A stretch of 34,136 bases of DNA from a virus. The notes under the pieces were generated by a model. It did not search any database. It was not told the origin of the DNA and saw only the letters and a program-made list of their open reading frames with translations. This document shows, piece after piece, positions 6,465-28,744 of the stretch (positions are counted from its first letter, which is position 1; each line of letters begins with the position of its first letter). The translations under genes were made by a program, and so were the position numbers. The stretch covers positions 1 to 34,136 of the IMG/VR virus record IMGVR_UViG_3300030389_001232; one strand, written 5' to 3'.

Positions 6465-6633
6465 CTTGAACTTCCTCCTTCAACATATTTACTGCTTCCA
6501 TTAATAACTTCATTGCTTCCATCATACTTTGTAGCTGTTTAGACATTTTAATCTGATTGTCTAATATGTCTAACAACTCTTGATGTAGTCCATCAACATC
6601 TTCAATCCCTATCTTTGATTCTAGTTCTGGCAT
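6433..6633 (-). CDS. coiled-coil hypothetical protein, 66 aa
   Basis: Residues 12-55 have heptad-spaced hydrophobics (LHQELLDILDNQIKMSKQ, then MMEAMKLLMEAVNMLKEEV), predicting a long coiled coil. It overlaps the end of the muramidase-like gene by 32 nt. No transmembrane segment is present, so a spanin-type role is unlikely. An oligomeric accessory of the lysis gene or an unrelated scaffold-like protein are both possible. Confidence 0.55.
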   Translation of the reverse strand: MPELESKIGIEDVDGLHQELLDILDNQIKMSKQLQSMMEAMKLLMEAVNMLKEEVQDGGQRPIKEQ

Positions 6634-7027
6634 ACTTTACTCCTTTGTCTGCATACTTATTTAATTTGTTTATTACTTCTGGTTTTGTTTTCTTGTACCA
6701 ATGGCATCCACCATTCCAACATTGCAAATAATCTCTAAAGGTTGCCTTCTTGCCTGTATTTAGCTCATAACGCTCAATCCAATAAGAAAGGTATAGTTTA
6801 GCTATCTCATGTGACTTTTGCATTGAGAAGCAATCCTCGTAAGAATATGACGTATCATAGACTCTATTAACATCTGCTATAATTAGATGTGGTTGAATTT
6901 GCATACATCCAAATGAATGATGCTTGCCATTCCAATAATCACCTTTAGCATTTAAGCGAGCATCTCCAGAGAGATGCCCACTTTCTAAAAACATTATTGT
7001 TGTTAAGATGAGCGACCAGTTAATCAT
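6602..7027 (-). CDS. lysozyme / transglycosylase-like endolysin
   Basis: The protein follows the goose-lysozyme/SLT pattern. A catalytic Glu sits in FLESGHLSGDARLNAKGD (residue about 15), then SFGCMQIQPHLI (the conserved G-x-x-Q-I turn), DVNRVYDTSYSYEDCF, and helices KSHEIAKLYLSYWIERY and DYLQCWNGG. These residues form the glycan-cleaving groove of soluble lytic transglycosylases and phage muramidases. The 12-residue hydrophobic N-terminus (MINWSLILTTIM) may be a remnant export or anchor segment, but it is short and runs straight into the catalytic helix. It overlaps the upstream gene by 8 nt. Likely the phage endolysin, degrading peptidoglycan at lysis. The nearest holin candidate is far away at 21.2-21.8 kb. 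Confidence 0.7.
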   Translation of the reverse strand: MINWSLILTTIMFLESGHLSGDARLNAKGDYWNGKHHSFGCMQIQPHLIIADVNRVYDTSYSYEDCFSMQKSHEIAKLYLSYWIERYELNTGKKATFRDYLQCWNGGCHWYKKTKPEVINKLNKYADKGVKYARTRIKDRD

Positions 7028-17295: not shown

Positions 17296-18330
17296 TTATA
17301 CATAAGTTAGTTCTGATTTTAATTTAAGTGTTACTGTATTTTCTATGTTACCATCTATTGCTGTTGATTTCTCTACATTATAAACACAACATCTAAATGT
17401 TGATTCAGTAGTTCCATCTGGTGCAATGATTTTACCATATAAATTTAAATCTTGTAACAAACAATCTGTAAATGAATATAATCTATATAATTTCATATTG
17501 CTTAATTCTAAATTAACTCTGTCTACATAAAGAGAGAAAGCTCTGTATCCACCACCTCTAAATGCGTACTTATGATCTCCAACTGTTTTAGGAATAAAGT
17601 GTCTGCGAATAGCATTGTAAGGTGAGCTGTAAAAACCATTTCTAGCATAGTTATGATATAAAGCATCTGCTCCACCAGATTGTACGCTGAAGCTATTAAG
17701 AGTATAATCAAACTGATATTTAAACAGTCCTTCTAATGTATAAACTTGACTAGGAGATTGAGTTTTTTGTCTTTGCTTTTCTATATAAATATTTGGTGGA
17801 TTTGTGTCTGCATTAGATAAATCAGTAGTCAGCCTTCTTGGACTTACACTTCCATTCCAAAATGCAGTTGTATTAGTTACAGATGCATTATCTGTTGTCC
17901 AACCTGTTCCTGCATTTGATCCAATGTCATTTCTTAATATACCATGATTAGCATTTACAACAGTTGTGTTTTCACCAGTTCCATTAATATCTATTTCATC
18001 ATGAATAAAAGAAGATTTAAAATCTGTTTCTGTCCAAACAGCAGTTGCATCTGAACTACCATTAGAAAATGAACCATCAGCTAATTGTGCATTCCAGTTT
18101 CCAAATCCTTCACCAACATTGTAAAGATTATGATTAGTAGTGAATACAATTTCACCTGCATCAACTAACCCACCTAAATAAGTTTTTGCATCACTTGATC
18201 CATGAGCAGTTACTTCTGATATATCTCTTACTGTATTTGGTAAATCTATTTCAGTTATTTCTTTGACTGTTACAAAATCTGTATTGTTTGGAGATAACTG
18301 TAATCCATATCCTCTTGCTTGCGTTGCCAT
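17296..18330 (-). CDS. tail tube paralogue with inserted CBM-like domain, 344 aa
   Basis: The first 75 residues align with the tail tube protein at 19651-20088: here ITEIDLPNTVRDISEVTAHGS then YLGGLVDAGEIVFTTN, there ITDITPPAISRDLIETTNHGS then YLGGLVDYGEVSVTVN. The last 60 residues also align (ESTFRCCVYNVEKSTAIDG ... TVTLKLKSELTY). Between them, residues about 100-285, lies extra beta-rich sequence: GTGWTTDNASVTNTTAFWNG, QVYTLEGLFKYQFDY and FSLYVDRVNLEL. Its pattern resembles a jelly-roll carbohydrate-binding module of the CBM4/9 type. It is probably a minor tube or tube-decorating subunit that displays this domain. Homology of the flanks is clear; the CBM call is tentative. Confidence 0.7.
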   Translation of the reverse strand: MATQARGYGLQLSPNNTDFVTVKEITEIDLPNTVRDISEVTAHGSSDAKTYLGGLVDAGEIVFTTNHNLYNVGEGFGNWNAQLADGSFSNGSSDATAVWTETDFKSSFIHDEIDINGTGENTTVVNANHGILRNDIGSNAGTGWTTDNASVTNTTAFWNGSVSPRRLTTDLSNADTNPPNIYIEKQRQKTQSPSQVYTLEGLFKYQFDYTLNSFSVQSGGADALYHNYARNGFYSSPYNAIRRHFIPKTVGDHKYAFRGGGYRAFSLYVDRVNLELSNMKLYRLYSFTDCLLQDLNLYGKIIAPDGTTESTFRCCVYNVEKSTAIDGNIENTVTLKLKSELTYV

Positions 18331-18332
18331 AA

Positions 18333-18872
18333 TTACCTCTTTCTACCAAGTAACAATCCTGCACCAGTCAATGCAATTAAAGCTATTGCTTGTGGTTCTG
18401 GTATAACTGTTAATGGTGTATCACTTGTTATGTTAAAATTTACTGTTCCTGTTTGCTCTGGATCGTAACTTGTCACCATAGCTAACACTTCATTTGTGAA
18501 TGTAAAATTAGGAAGATAGAAAAACAATCCTTCTTCCATATCATAATTCCCATCATCATCTTCATCAGCTAAATAATAAGAAGCTGTAAATTGTTCTAAT
18601 CCATTAAATGATTTTTCTTCTGGTAGATATAAATATAAATAAGGATCATCATAATCTGTTAAATCAGCATCATAATTAAAGAATGAAACTGTAGCTTCAC
18701 CTTCTGCTGTTATGTAAAACAAATCATAATAATGTTCTTCTTGATCTATTGTAACAACATTAGCTTCTGATAGTATTGCTTCATAATCATATACTATATC
18801 TGCATTCACAAAACTTGCTAAAATCAATACAGCTAATAATCCTGCTAATGCTAATATTTCTTGTAATCTCAT
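18333..18872 (-). CDS. secreted PEP-CTERM protein in the tail operon, 179 aa
   Basis: Residues 1-24 form a signal peptide (MRLQEILALAGLLAVLILAS, then FVNA before DIVYDY). The C-terminus is a textbook PEP-CTERM tail: VIPEP with P158-E159-P160, the hydrophobic stretch QAIALIALTGAGLLLG, and a final RKR. In Gram-negative bacteria exosortase (EpsH/Xrt) recognises this tail and processes it during export to the cell surface. The body is beta-rich and very acidic/aromatic (DYDDPYLYLYLPEE, DEDDDGNYDMEEG), like other PEP-CTERM ectodomains. It overlaps the 48-codon gene by 4 nt (ATGA) and ends 2 nt before the tail-tube paralogue. No exosortase is present in the window, so the phage would rely on the host enzyme. 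Role unknown; surface modification or superinfection exclusion is inference. Confidence 0.8.
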   Translation of the reverse strand: MRLQEILALAGLLAVLILASFVNADIVYDYEAILSEANVVTIDQEEHYYDLFYITAEGEATVSFFNYDADLTDYDDPYLYLYLPEEKSFNGLEQFTASYYLADEDDDGNYDMEEGLFFYLPNFTFTNEVLAMVTSYDPEQTGTVNFNITSDTPLTVIPEPQAIALIALTGAGLLLGRKR

Positions 18873-19015
18873 TTTTTAAACCACTCCAATATCTTAAAAA
18901 TTTTCCAATGTCTTGGCATAAATAAACTCAATGTGCAAAGCAGACCACCTATTCCAATTAATACTGCTATCACATTTGCTTTTACTATTTCCCATATTAA
19001 CTCTACATAAATCAT
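18869..19015 (-). CDS. small membrane protein, 48 aa
   Basis: ATG 19015 overlaps the TGA of the 197-residue gene (ATGA), and its own TGA overlaps the PEP-CTERM start (ATGA). The product is MIYVELIWEIVKANV, a hydrophobic helix (IAVLIGIGGLLCTLSLFM), then a basic tail (PRHWKIFKILEWFKK), so one membrane span with the positive end inside. The double overlap is strong evidence of translation. It may assist the neighbouring exported protein; no family is recognised. Confidence 0.65.
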   Translation of the reverse strand: MIYVELIWEIVKANVIAVLIGIGGLLCTLSLFMPRHWKIFKILEWFKK

Positions 19016-19650: not shown

Positions 19651-20088
19651 TTAAGAATAACTTACTGCACCAGATACTTTAATTGTAATAGTAGCTGTTA
19701 ATTGTGCATCTATTGGAGATGATGTTTCAAATCCTGTAACAATTCCATTGAATGTTTCAACAGTTGCTCCTGCATCTGCATAAGTAACCTTAAACTCATA
19801 GTTAGCTGGATTTTCTGATGCACTACCAGAATCATAAGTTCCACCAGTTGCTAATCCTCTTAAACCAATGTCGTCTGTTCCATCTGGATCATAGTTTACT
19901 GTTACTGATACTTCACCATAATCAACTAATCCACCAAGATAAGATTTAACATTTGAACCATGATTAGTAGTTTCAATTAAATCTCTTGATATTGCTGGTG
20001 GTGTAATATCAGTTATCTCACCTAACTCTGCGAAAGTTCCACCATCTTTACGATAATGAAACTTCATACCGAATCCACGTTCTGCCAT
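19651..20088 (-). CDS. major tail tube protein, 145 aa
   Basis: The pattern FAELGEITDITPPAISRDLIETTNHGS, YLGGLVDYGEVSVTVNYDPDG and FNGIVTGFETSSPIDAQLTATITIKVSG is that of lambda gpV-type tail tube proteins. A leading beta-loop is followed by the I-E-x-T ... G-x-x-D-x-G core and a final strand. It polymerises around the tape measure as stacked hexameric rings. A ribosome site identical to that of the capsid gene precedes it, consistent with high expression. A hairpin follows the stop codon. A longer paralogue lies at 17296-18330. Confidence 0.82.
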   Translation of the reverse strand: MAERGFGMKFHYRKDGGTFAELGEITDITPPAISRDLIETTNHGSNVKSYLGGLVDYGEVSVTVNYDPDGTDDIGLRGLATGGTYDSGSASENPANYEFKVTYADAGATVETFNGIVTGFETSSPIDAQLTATITIKVSGAVSYS

Positions 20089-20921: not shown

Positions 20922-21238
20922 TATTCCACCACCTTTGCATGAATGATTGTTTGACCATATCTTCTTTGATCTTCTAGGAACTCAATATCATACTTCTTAC
21001 CTCTGTATAATATTTGATCTGTTTCATCTATTGATGATAAATAACGAACTCTGAATCTTATGTTTCTTATAGATACATCTTTATTATCTTCATTTTTCTC
21101 TGATCCAGATTTAACAATTACTTGTGCTGAAATTGTGTTAGCAGTTGAAAAAGATTCAATAGGTTCACCAAAGTCATTCTCTGAACTTGAGCGACTTTGT
21201 ATCTCTATTCTTTCATCCAATCTACCAACATTTCTCAC
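20921..21238 (-). CDS. head-tail joining protein (SPP1 gp16-like), 105 aa
   Basis: The start is GTG 21238, whose G is shared with the TAG stop of the upstream gene. The longer frame upstream of it only reads through that gene. The sequence LDERIEIQSRSSSENDFGEPIESF, then ISAQVIVKSG, IRNIRFRVRYLSSIDETDQILYRGKKYDIEFLED and AKVVE is typical of the Phage_H_T_join adaptor: R-I-x-I/L-Q ... G-x-x ... R-x-R ... R-Y-x-x-x-x-x-x-D-R-I-x-Y-x-G-x-x-Y-x-I. It forms the stopper ring below the connector. Confidence 0.8.
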   Translation of the reverse strand: MRNVGRLDERIEIQSRSSSENDFGEPIESFSTANTISAQVIVKSGSEKNEDNKDVSIRNIRFRVRYLSSIDETDQILYRGKKYDIEFLEDQRRYGQTIIHAKVVE

Positions 21239-21654
21239 TATTTTCTCCCCAAAGAATTTGACCCAAAATAATAGCCCACGAGAAGACAGAGAGAATCCAC
21301 AAGCGACTGTTCCACCCATAATCCAGACACTTCTTGATAAACTGTCTTGCTAAAAATCCACCAACCTTCTTTGACTGGAACGCTTACTCCAACATCTGTA
21401 AAAGCTATAATGAATGGAAAATAAACCATTGTTAAAAGGATACTAATTACAATAAATCTTCTAACCCAGCTTGCATCTTTACCACCTCTTTTAGATGCTC
21501 TGTCTGCTGAATCATCTTGTGCTTGTTGCATTTCAATCTTACCAGCAGTTTGAGCTTTTGAAATATCTAAAGAACCTTGAACAATAGTTCCTATGAGTTT
21601 AAATAAAAATCCAGAACCTGCTCCTGCTAAAAGTGTTAATGCTTCTCCACCCAT
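21238..21654 (-). CDS. 3TM holin-like membrane protein, 138 aa
   Basis: A first hydrophobic segment (ALTLLAGAGSGFLFKLIGTIV) is followed by a polar linker (AQTAGKIEMQQAQDDSADRASKRGG). Then come WVRRFIVISILLTMVYFPFIIAF and a last segment ending LCLLVGYYFGSNSLGRK. This three-span layout with W-x-R-R before the second helix and Y-Y-F-G-x ... R near the end matches the GTA_holin_3TM type family. Genes of this family release gene transfer agents or phages by permeabilising the inner membrane. Its location inside the head-tail operon is unusual for a holin but it lies next to a second membrane protein. Moderate call. Confidence 0.6.
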   Translation of the reverse strand: MGGEALTLLAGAGSGFLFKLIGTIVQGSLDISKAQTAGKIEMQQAQDDSADRASKRGGKDASWVRRFIVISILLTMVYFPFIIAFTDVGVSVPVKEGWWIFSKTVYQEVSGLWVEQSLVDSLCLLVGYYFGSNSLGRK

Positions 21655-27711: not shown

Positions 27712-28671
27712 TTATTTTTTCTTCTTACCAAGTATGAAGTCAAATGCTTTTTGAGCTTCTTTAGATGCTTCCATAATCATGTTCTCATCATCTTCTAATT
27801 TAGAAACCCAGCCTTTAATATAAGATGCTTGATTATCAATTACAGCAGGAGAGATTCCAGTATCAGCACAAAGAAAACAAGCTGTTAGTTCTGCAACTAA
27901 TTCTTCTTTTGAATATTTCTCTGAACCAAAGTTTACTGGATCAACAACACCTTCTCTGGCTAATCTTGATTCATGTCCAGTTGAATGAGCAAGCTCATGA
28001 AACATTGTGCTGTAATATTCTTCTGAACCTTCAAAGTTATTTCTAACAGGCATCTCAACACGATCAAAGAAAGGTTGATAACAAGGTACAGTACATTCTT
28101 TTGTTTCACTCAACGCTGGTCTTTGTGGCATATTATCAATAATCTTTTGAGCTTCTTCTAGTATCTCATTTTCTTTTGCTTGAACTGGTTTTGGCTTAAC
28201 CCAATCATGCTTGATCCCTTCAACTTGCTCTAGGTTGAATACTGAAATATATCTTTCAGAGAACCATGCTTTATATCCATGTTCTTCTGTTGTTCTGTTG
28301 ATTTGATAGATGCTCATATCTTTGATCTCTTGTGGAACTTGACTAGCATTGATGTATTTCCCATCTTTAGAGTAGCTAGGATATGCCATATAAAATGCAG
28401 TTGATTTAGAACCCTTCTTCACCTTACCACCAGCTTTTGAAATTTGATTGAATGTTGCATAGTATGGACAATCAAACTTTGAGAAGTGATGAATGAATAA
28501 GTTAATTCCACTTGTGTAATGTTTCTTGGTAAACCAGTTAAGTGGTCTTGAGTTATCAATTCCACCTACCCATGTTTTTCTCCAAGCAACTGTACCTTCT
28601 TTTAATTTTGCAATGATAGATTCTGTTAGAATCTTGTTTACTGATTTTTTATTTGTAACTTTTTTTGCCAT
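27712..28671 (-). CDS. ardC-like: ArdC-like antirestriction protein with zincin domain, 319 aa
   Basis: The N-terminal 130 residues (TESIIAKLKEGTVAWRKTWVGG, PLNWFTKKHYTSGINLFI, FNQISKAGGKVKKGSKSTAF) match the ArdC N-terminal ssDNA-binding domain. The C-terminal half is a zincin metallopeptidase: STMFHELAHSTGHESRLARE contains H-E-x-x-H, and KEELVAELTACFLC gives the third ligand Glu. ArdC of plasmids protects incoming DNA from restriction (family knowledge). Start is ATG 28671 with AAAGGAG upstream; ATG 28707 opens a 12-residue leaderless extension. Own promoter and terminator suggest early expression. The phage also encodes a DNA methyltransferase, so it has two counter-defences. Confidence 0.88.
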   Translation of the reverse strand: MAKKVTNKKSVNKILTESIIAKLKEGTVAWRKTWVGGIDNSRPLNWFTKKHYTSGINLFIHHFSKFDCPYYATFNQISKAGGKVKKGSKSTAFYMAYPSYSKDGKYINASQVPQEIKDMSIYQINRTTEEHGYKAWFSERYISVFNLEQVEGIKHDWVKPKPVQAKENEILEEAQKIIDNMPQRPALSETKECTVPCYQPFFDRVEMPVRNNFEGSEEYYSTMFHELAHSTGHESRLAREGVVDPVNFGSEKYSKEELVAELTACFLCADTGISPAVIDNQASYIKGWVSKLEDDENMIMEASKEAQKAFDFILGKKKK

Positions 28672-28704
28672 TTTTTTATCTCCTTTTTTATGGACTGTTT
28701 TAAT

Positions 28705-28744
28705 CATGGGTATAGTTTATGAACTATCTTTGTTGTTATGTCAA
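28705..28744 (-). promoter_or_regulatory. promoter of the ArdC-like gene
   Basis: TTGACA (28739-28744), a 19-nt spacer, TAAACT (28714-28719), then ATACCC and ATGATTAA at 28707, in frame with the gene. Confidence 0.75.

Follow-up and report, generated by a model that had tools for sequence, protein, structure and literature searches.

A conserved gene cassette of uncultured phages encodes candidate substrates of host exosortase

Analysis of a 34,136-base virus contig from IMG/VR (~33% G+C), referred to here in its entirety as the window, identified a gene whose product has the architecture of a PEP-CTERM protein, combining an N-terminal signal peptide, an acidic body and a tail in which a Pro-Glu-Pro (PEP) tripeptide is followed by a hydrophobic stretch and a basic end. 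The gene, this architecture, the family of phage proteins to which it belongs, its linkage to two further genes and the constraint acting on its tail are established here. We consider it fairly likely that the gene encodes a substrate of the host exosortase that is displayed late on the infected cell and may modify its envelope. The balance tips slightly in favour of a broader reading, in which unrelated lineages of uncultured phages share a cassette that hijacks host exosortase to display a phage protein, the first case of phage C-terminal sorting in Gram-negative hosts, and in which a short version of the protein, encoded in the -1 frame over a small membrane protein gene (TM49), would bring just a membrane segment plus a PEP tail into the same pathway.

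Architecture of the phage protein

The open reading frame begins with ATG at position 18872 and ends on the minus strand with a stop codon at 18333-18335, encoding 179 residues; a sequence-only reading of the window had its coordinates and strand right (Table 1). The signal peptide, acidic beta-rich body and IPEP-hydrophobic-RKR terminus described in that reading are also present. In the tail, a hydrophobic stretch of ~15 residues separates IPEP from RKR, and the extreme C-terminus is IPEPQAIALIALTGAGLLLGRKR. The body (residues 25-156) contains 0.8% Lys plus Arg, 22.9% Asp plus Glu and no Cys, and this composition holds for the mature body in all 21 orthologues compared (0-3.1%, 16-23% and 0, respectively). 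Bacterial PEP-CTERM proteins are likewise described as comparatively poor in basic residues and almost devoid of Cys (Haft 2006, PMC1569441).

Table 1. Positions of the cassette genes, protein segments, neighbouring genes and short-form tails (window coordinates unless a contig is named)
Feature	Position	Strand	Basis or description
Phage PEP-CTERM protein, long form, 179 aa	18333..18872	-	ORF, profile matches, family alignment, AlphaFold2
N-terminal signal peptide, residues 1-24	18801..18872	-	predicted signal peptidase I site VNA/D, read from sequence
Secreted body, residues 25-156	18405..18800	-	acidic, Cys-free predicted beta-sandwich, conserved DEDDDGN
PEP-CTERM tail, residues 157-179	18336..18404	-	IPEP + hydrophobic stretch + RKR; TIGR02595
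Pro-Glu-Pro tripeptide	18393..18401	-	family alignment, 21 members
TM49, 48-aa single-span membrane protein	18869..19015	-	homologues in relatives
Gene A, linked partner, 197 aa	19012..19605	-	alignments; upstream of PEP gene
Downstream neighbour, tail-tube-like protein	17296..18330	-	phrog_158, 8.9e-06
Upstream neighbour, major tail protein	19651..20088	-	phrog_158, 4.7e-21
Short-form PEP tail	L033:1372-1674		-1 frame over TM49
Short-form PEP tail	L034:3342-3650		-1 frame over TM49
Short-form PEP tail	L075:2463-2765		-1 frame over TM49
Short-form PEP tail	L081:3457-3753		-1 frame over TM49
Short-form PEP tail	L083:6437-6742		-1 frame over TM49
Short-form PEP tail	L086:6437-6742		-1 frame over TM49

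The tail was compared with PEP-CTERM models, as the sequence-only reading had suggested. TIGR02595 (cut-off 16 bits) scored the whole window protein below threshold at 13.6 bits, and exceeded it both in a six-frame search of the window DNA (17.7 bits) and with the isolated 26-residue tail (19.6 bits); for PF07589 the isolated tail fell just short (20.4 against 20.7 bits). Judged from its sequence by itself, the window protein is a good yet borderline PEP-CTERM member, and it is the relatives that decide the matter: in most of these, TIGR02595 lies clearly above the cut-off, reaching 26.4 bits. A six-frame TIGR02595 scan of 31 phage records (23 totalling 541 kb, then 8 more totalling 208 kb) yielded 25 matches at E <= 10, 21 of them over the cut-off, and every one was the end of the PEP gene or of its short-form counterpart, with no off-target match in the ~750 kb. 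Since the tail is conserved in 21 non-identical orthologues and nothing else in this DNA matches the model, its sequence is beyond what chance would produce.

The best NCBIfam matches were to the bacterial PEP-CTERM families THxN (NF038125, 19 bits against a cut-off of 85), NF038129 (15 against 65) and XDP1 (NF041927, 15 against 125). These cover at most residues 125-179, and the body of the phage protein differs from theirs. The PGF-CTERM model also stayed under its cut-off on the window protein (18.0 against 24.5).

AlphaFold2, supplied with the family alignment, folded the protein as a beta-sandwich with a mean pLDDT of 79 and values of ~90 over most of the body. Structural matches to the body (Z 7-10) include calpain C2-like domains, a subtilisin-associated jelly-roll, LipL32 and the pre-peptidase C-terminal (PPC) and collagen-binding domains of collagenases, the last two with Z 7.6-8.0 by VIA-align. 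With the PPC and collagen-binding, calpain C2-like and LipL32 domains the predicted body shares its beta-sandwich and an acidic, putatively calcium-binding site, a likeness at the level of fold only (sequence identity ~7-20%, Foldseek E values of 1e-3 at best); the conserved DEDDDGN motif suggests such a site. The Pfam PPC model did not match the protein, and the family profile gave no convincing match to sequences of solved structures. A Pfam DAM-like-phage2 hit to the body (0.003, under the cut-off and in 1 of 17 members) was set aside.

Family conservation, the cassette and alternative readings

Relatives were gathered with terminase, capsid, PEP and gene-A queries. The sequence-only reading had proposed looking for the gene in related phages, and it proved to have many carriers: we compared 21 non-identical long-form orthologues, all from IMG/VR contigs, with 49-74% identity to the window protein in a 17-row alignment. 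Among viral structure models, A0A516MBN4 is also genuinely related (47% identity, E = 4.9e-18). IPE is invariant in the 21 members and the final Pro is present in 18; the other three (L040, L042 and L090) carry PEA and have no TIGR02595 match, and these natural variants offer a handle on how strict the requirement for PEP is. After the hydrophobic helix, the C-terminal end is basic (RKR, KRK or RR) in most members and weaker in L067 and L069. This pattern can be set beside that of bacterial PEP-CTERM tails, in which the motif is near-invariant and precedes a helix with a basic cytoplasmic end (Haft 2006, PMC1569441).

The two termini of the protein evolve differently. Long-form signal peptides, judged by eye rather than with SignalP, retain an A-x-A/D or similar site while the remainder drifts, and in some relatives (for example L014, L024 and L036) the segment has been swapped or rewritten. 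Mean pN/pS over all pairs reached 0.83 in the signal peptide but stood at 0.44 in the body and 0.47 in the tail. A tail about as constrained as the body suggests that its sequence is read by a protein; because both ends are hydrophobic targeting segments, of which one drifts and the other is constrained, sequence-specific reading of the tail is favoured. Constraint by itself is no proof of a sorting signal, however, since TM49, a plain membrane protein, is likewise constrained (pN/pS 0.21).

The PEP gene forms a cassette with TM49 (48 residues in the window, 49 in most relatives) and gene A. TM49 overlaps both of its neighbours, each junction reading ATGA, which makes translational coupling likely. 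Gene A has a conserved Gly-rich core, GASGLIAxGSAGAFQ; its product matched no NCBIfam or PHROGs family and had no confident Pfam match, and its AlphaFold2 model (pLDDT 44) was discarded. A PEP-CTERM gene follows gene A in all 30 contigs that reach far enough downstream, 24 with the long form (counting L035, whose contig stops within the gene) and 6 with the short form, and gene A precedes every PEP gene whose contig extends upstream; because the loci were found through gene-A and PEP queries, these counts measure linkage and are not a survey of phages. L026, L078, L085 and the partial copy in L015 have too little downstream DNA to enter the count, and the DNA of L026 stops precisely at the expected start of the PEP gene. 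In L023 and L025, gene A and the PEP gene are separated by additional small genes. The 35-kb terminase relative G007 is without a PEP gene.

The window derives from a tailed phage encoding terminase large subunit, portal and Clp-type prohead protease, with a likely major capsid gene downstream of these, and a long tape-measure-like gene recognized by tblastn to annotated tape measure proteins. It also encodes a DnaB helicase, a DNA methylase and an ArdC-type protein (27712-28707, minus strand) in which an N-terminal ArdC domain is combined with a zincin-like peptidase and which may counter restriction. On each side the cassette is bordered by a tail-tube-like gene, the second of which contains a long extra region. 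The sequence-only reading placed the gene inside the tail operon, which holds for the window, where it lies between the major tail protein and the second tail-tube-like gene; a special link to the tail is not supported, because T7-like and other carriers have the cassette outside a tail-tube operon. HK97-type siphoviruses (the window, L013, L014 and L021), a phage with a T7-type head-tail connector (L033), one with a T7-type terminase (L034) and two with a phrog_267/P22-coat-related capsid (L023 and L025) all carry it, and in L036, L037 and L039 it lies downstream of presumed fibre genes. Its occurrence in such unrelated phage types indicates that the module moves between phages and is no part of the tail, and is expected for a function directed at the host rather than at virion structure. 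The cassette is a moron-like module whose position in the tail operon is incidental.

In six contigs, L033 (L082), L034 (L084), L075, L081, L083 and L086, the PEP gene is replaced by a short form that has no homologous body and in which no N-terminal signal peptide was seen. Its tail follows TM49 in the -1 frame and reads DC(P)N[VI]PEP (TVPEP in L082), a hydrophobic stretch and, in most, a basic end; PEP occurs in all six, with an invariant Cys shortly before it. All six contigs have an open -1 frame across TM49, whereas 2-7 stops interrupt it in each of the seven other TM49 genes inspected, which are long-form or unassigned; it stayed open in 8% of trials when synonymous codons of one TM49 were shuffled. 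The PEP codons show synonymous changes among the six, and pN/pS was 0.50 for the short-form tail and, in the overlap, 1.4 in the -1 frame against 0.21 for TM49. The short forms are related, so six independent events are not implied. Possible slip sites, read by eye from the DNA, occur in 5 of the 6 contigs (U UUU UUA or U UUU UUG in L081, L083, L086 and L075; A AAU UUC in L084); as none was seen in L082, we do not claim a programmed -1 frameshift as the source of the short form.

These data bear on several alternatives to exosortase processing. The strongest, which we regard as unlikely though deserving serious weight, is that the C-terminus is merely an inner-membrane anchor for a periplasmic effector acting, for example, in lysis or against adsorption, with PEP forming a membrane-proximal turn that no enzyme reads. 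Type I membrane proteins commonly combine a signal peptide with a C-terminal helix and basic end, small membrane proteins abound in the cassette (TM49 and TM50/66 in the carriers), the second Pro is absent from three members, and no exosortase gene was found in the phage records searched. An anchor of this kind accounts poorly, however, for a tail that is constrained while the signal peptide drifts, for IPE in every long-form member, for the retention of PEP in all six short forms, which have no homologous body, and for a body composition consistent with that of exosortase substrates.

A spanin-like lysis protein, partnered with TM49 or a three-span membrane protein as holin, is improbable. 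With its signal peptide, presumed periplasmic body and C-terminal helix, the phage protein resembles unimolecular spanins in topology, and in several carriers the cassette follows presumed fibre genes, close to the three-span protein. Yet the window protein has no lipobox and the signal peptidase I site is conserved, so the protein would be without an outer-membrane anchor; the small membrane proteins matched no holin or spanin family; and the only lysozyme-like candidate in the window, a weak SLT match at 6602-7027, lies ~11 kb away. A conserved membrane protein with several likely spans (21238-21654, minus strand; phrog_38283) recurs near the cassette in many carriers and is a holin candidate.

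Marginally less probable still is a decoy role, in which the PEP tail would occupy or jam the host exosortase, block host surface proteins and so change exopolysaccharide or receptor exposure. This would suit the short form, which may amount to little beyond a TM49-coupled PEP tail, and the IPEA variants, which might bind and escape cleavage, but it leaves the signal peptide and the conserved 130-residue body, with its pN/pS of 0.44, unaccounted for. That the protein is part of the virion, whether it gets there through the membrane or at assembly, is very improbable in spite of the position of the window gene between two tail-tube-like genes: the protein has a signal peptide while tailed-phage virions assemble in the cytoplasm, and L022, L023, L036 and L039 have the cassette but lack that tail operon.

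Proposed route and hosts

PEP-CTERM proteins are exported by Sec and anchored by their tails, and exosortase recognizes the PEP motif and delivers them to the surface or to exopolysaccharide. We propose that the phage protein would follow this route. Its gene would be expressed from the coupled gene A-TM49-PEP cassette together with the late structural genes, a timing suggested by gene position; the product would be exported by Sec and lose its signal peptide at A-x-A/D; and the C-terminal helix would anchor it in the inner membrane, oriented so that PEP faces the periplasm and RKR lies on the cytoplasmic side. Cleavage at PEP by the host exosortase would then release the acidic beta-sandwich to the cell surface or exopolysaccharide. 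Such cleavage is probable, and a surface location is somewhat less so. By analogy with Llp of phage T5, we offer more tentatively a role in adsorption or at the envelope, which is possible at best: the altered envelope might prevent other phages, or the phage's own progeny, from adsorbing to a doomed cell or its debris.

No exosortase gene was found in 23 carrier or related records, many of them fragments, and this favours use of a host enzyme. A pattern-based search found no relatives of the PEP protein or gene A in sequenced genome contigs; neither occurred in the cultured phages searched, nor the PEP protein in the plasmids searched. The window and the relatives searched contain no tRNA that might hint at a host. 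The carriers are uncultured phages, apparently marine, as several of their IMG sample numbers belong to what we take to be seawater samples. For one T7-like carrier, the nearest cultured phages have Roseobacter-group bacteria and Pelagibacter as hosts, and we rejected this as evidence of host because terminase identity is only ~50%; to our knowledge, neither group is noted for exosortases. Planktonic marine DNA from the Sargasso data was found to be very poor in PEP-CTERM sequences, with 2 matches in 670 Mb (Haft 2006, PMC1569441), which counts against the exosortase reading.

Relation to known systems and significance

The phage protein shares with substrates of the PEP-CTERM/exosortase system (EpsH, XrtA-type; TIGR02595, PF07589, PF09721) the signal peptide, the acidic Cys-free body and the terminal PEP, helix and basic end. 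Unlike those, it is phage-encoded, present as a single copy per record within a conserved cassette and in records without exosortase, and it has a short form. MYXO-CTERM/myxosortase, GlyGly-CTERM/rhombosortase and PGF-CTERM/archaeosortase (PMC11980579) share the tripartite logic, and the Cys before PEP in the short form resembles them, whereas the signature tripeptide of the phage proteins is PEP. In Nostoc, loss of exosortase alters the PEP-CTERM exoproteome and polysaccharide adhesion (PMC12188702).

Closer in proposed function are small exported phage proteins that act at the host envelope. Lambdoid Cor, Lom and Bor are phage-encoded surface or exclusion proteins. The small lipoprotein Llp of phage T5 blocks the receptor and helps to limit adsorption, both to infected cells and to the fragments left by lysis (PMC9586334). 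All four are lipoproteins or outer-membrane proteins, whereas the PEP protein would take the exosortase route and may have an exclusion role. Searches of the open-access literature turned up no phage with a described PEP-CTERM or exosortase system, in agreement with the sequence-only reading, which knew of none; the sorting signal is already known, and what appears to be new is that a conserved phage cassette makes use of it.

Phages send lipoproteins and outer-membrane proteins to the surface of the infected cell. If our reading is true, they also exploit the exosortase route, a pathway of which the bacterial chemistry is so far little understood, and the hosts of these phages would be predicted to have exosortase, which would aid in finding them. 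A viral substrate family in which the body is constant, PEP and PEA both occur naturally and a minimal version exists would then be a good tool for studying how exosortases act on their substrates.
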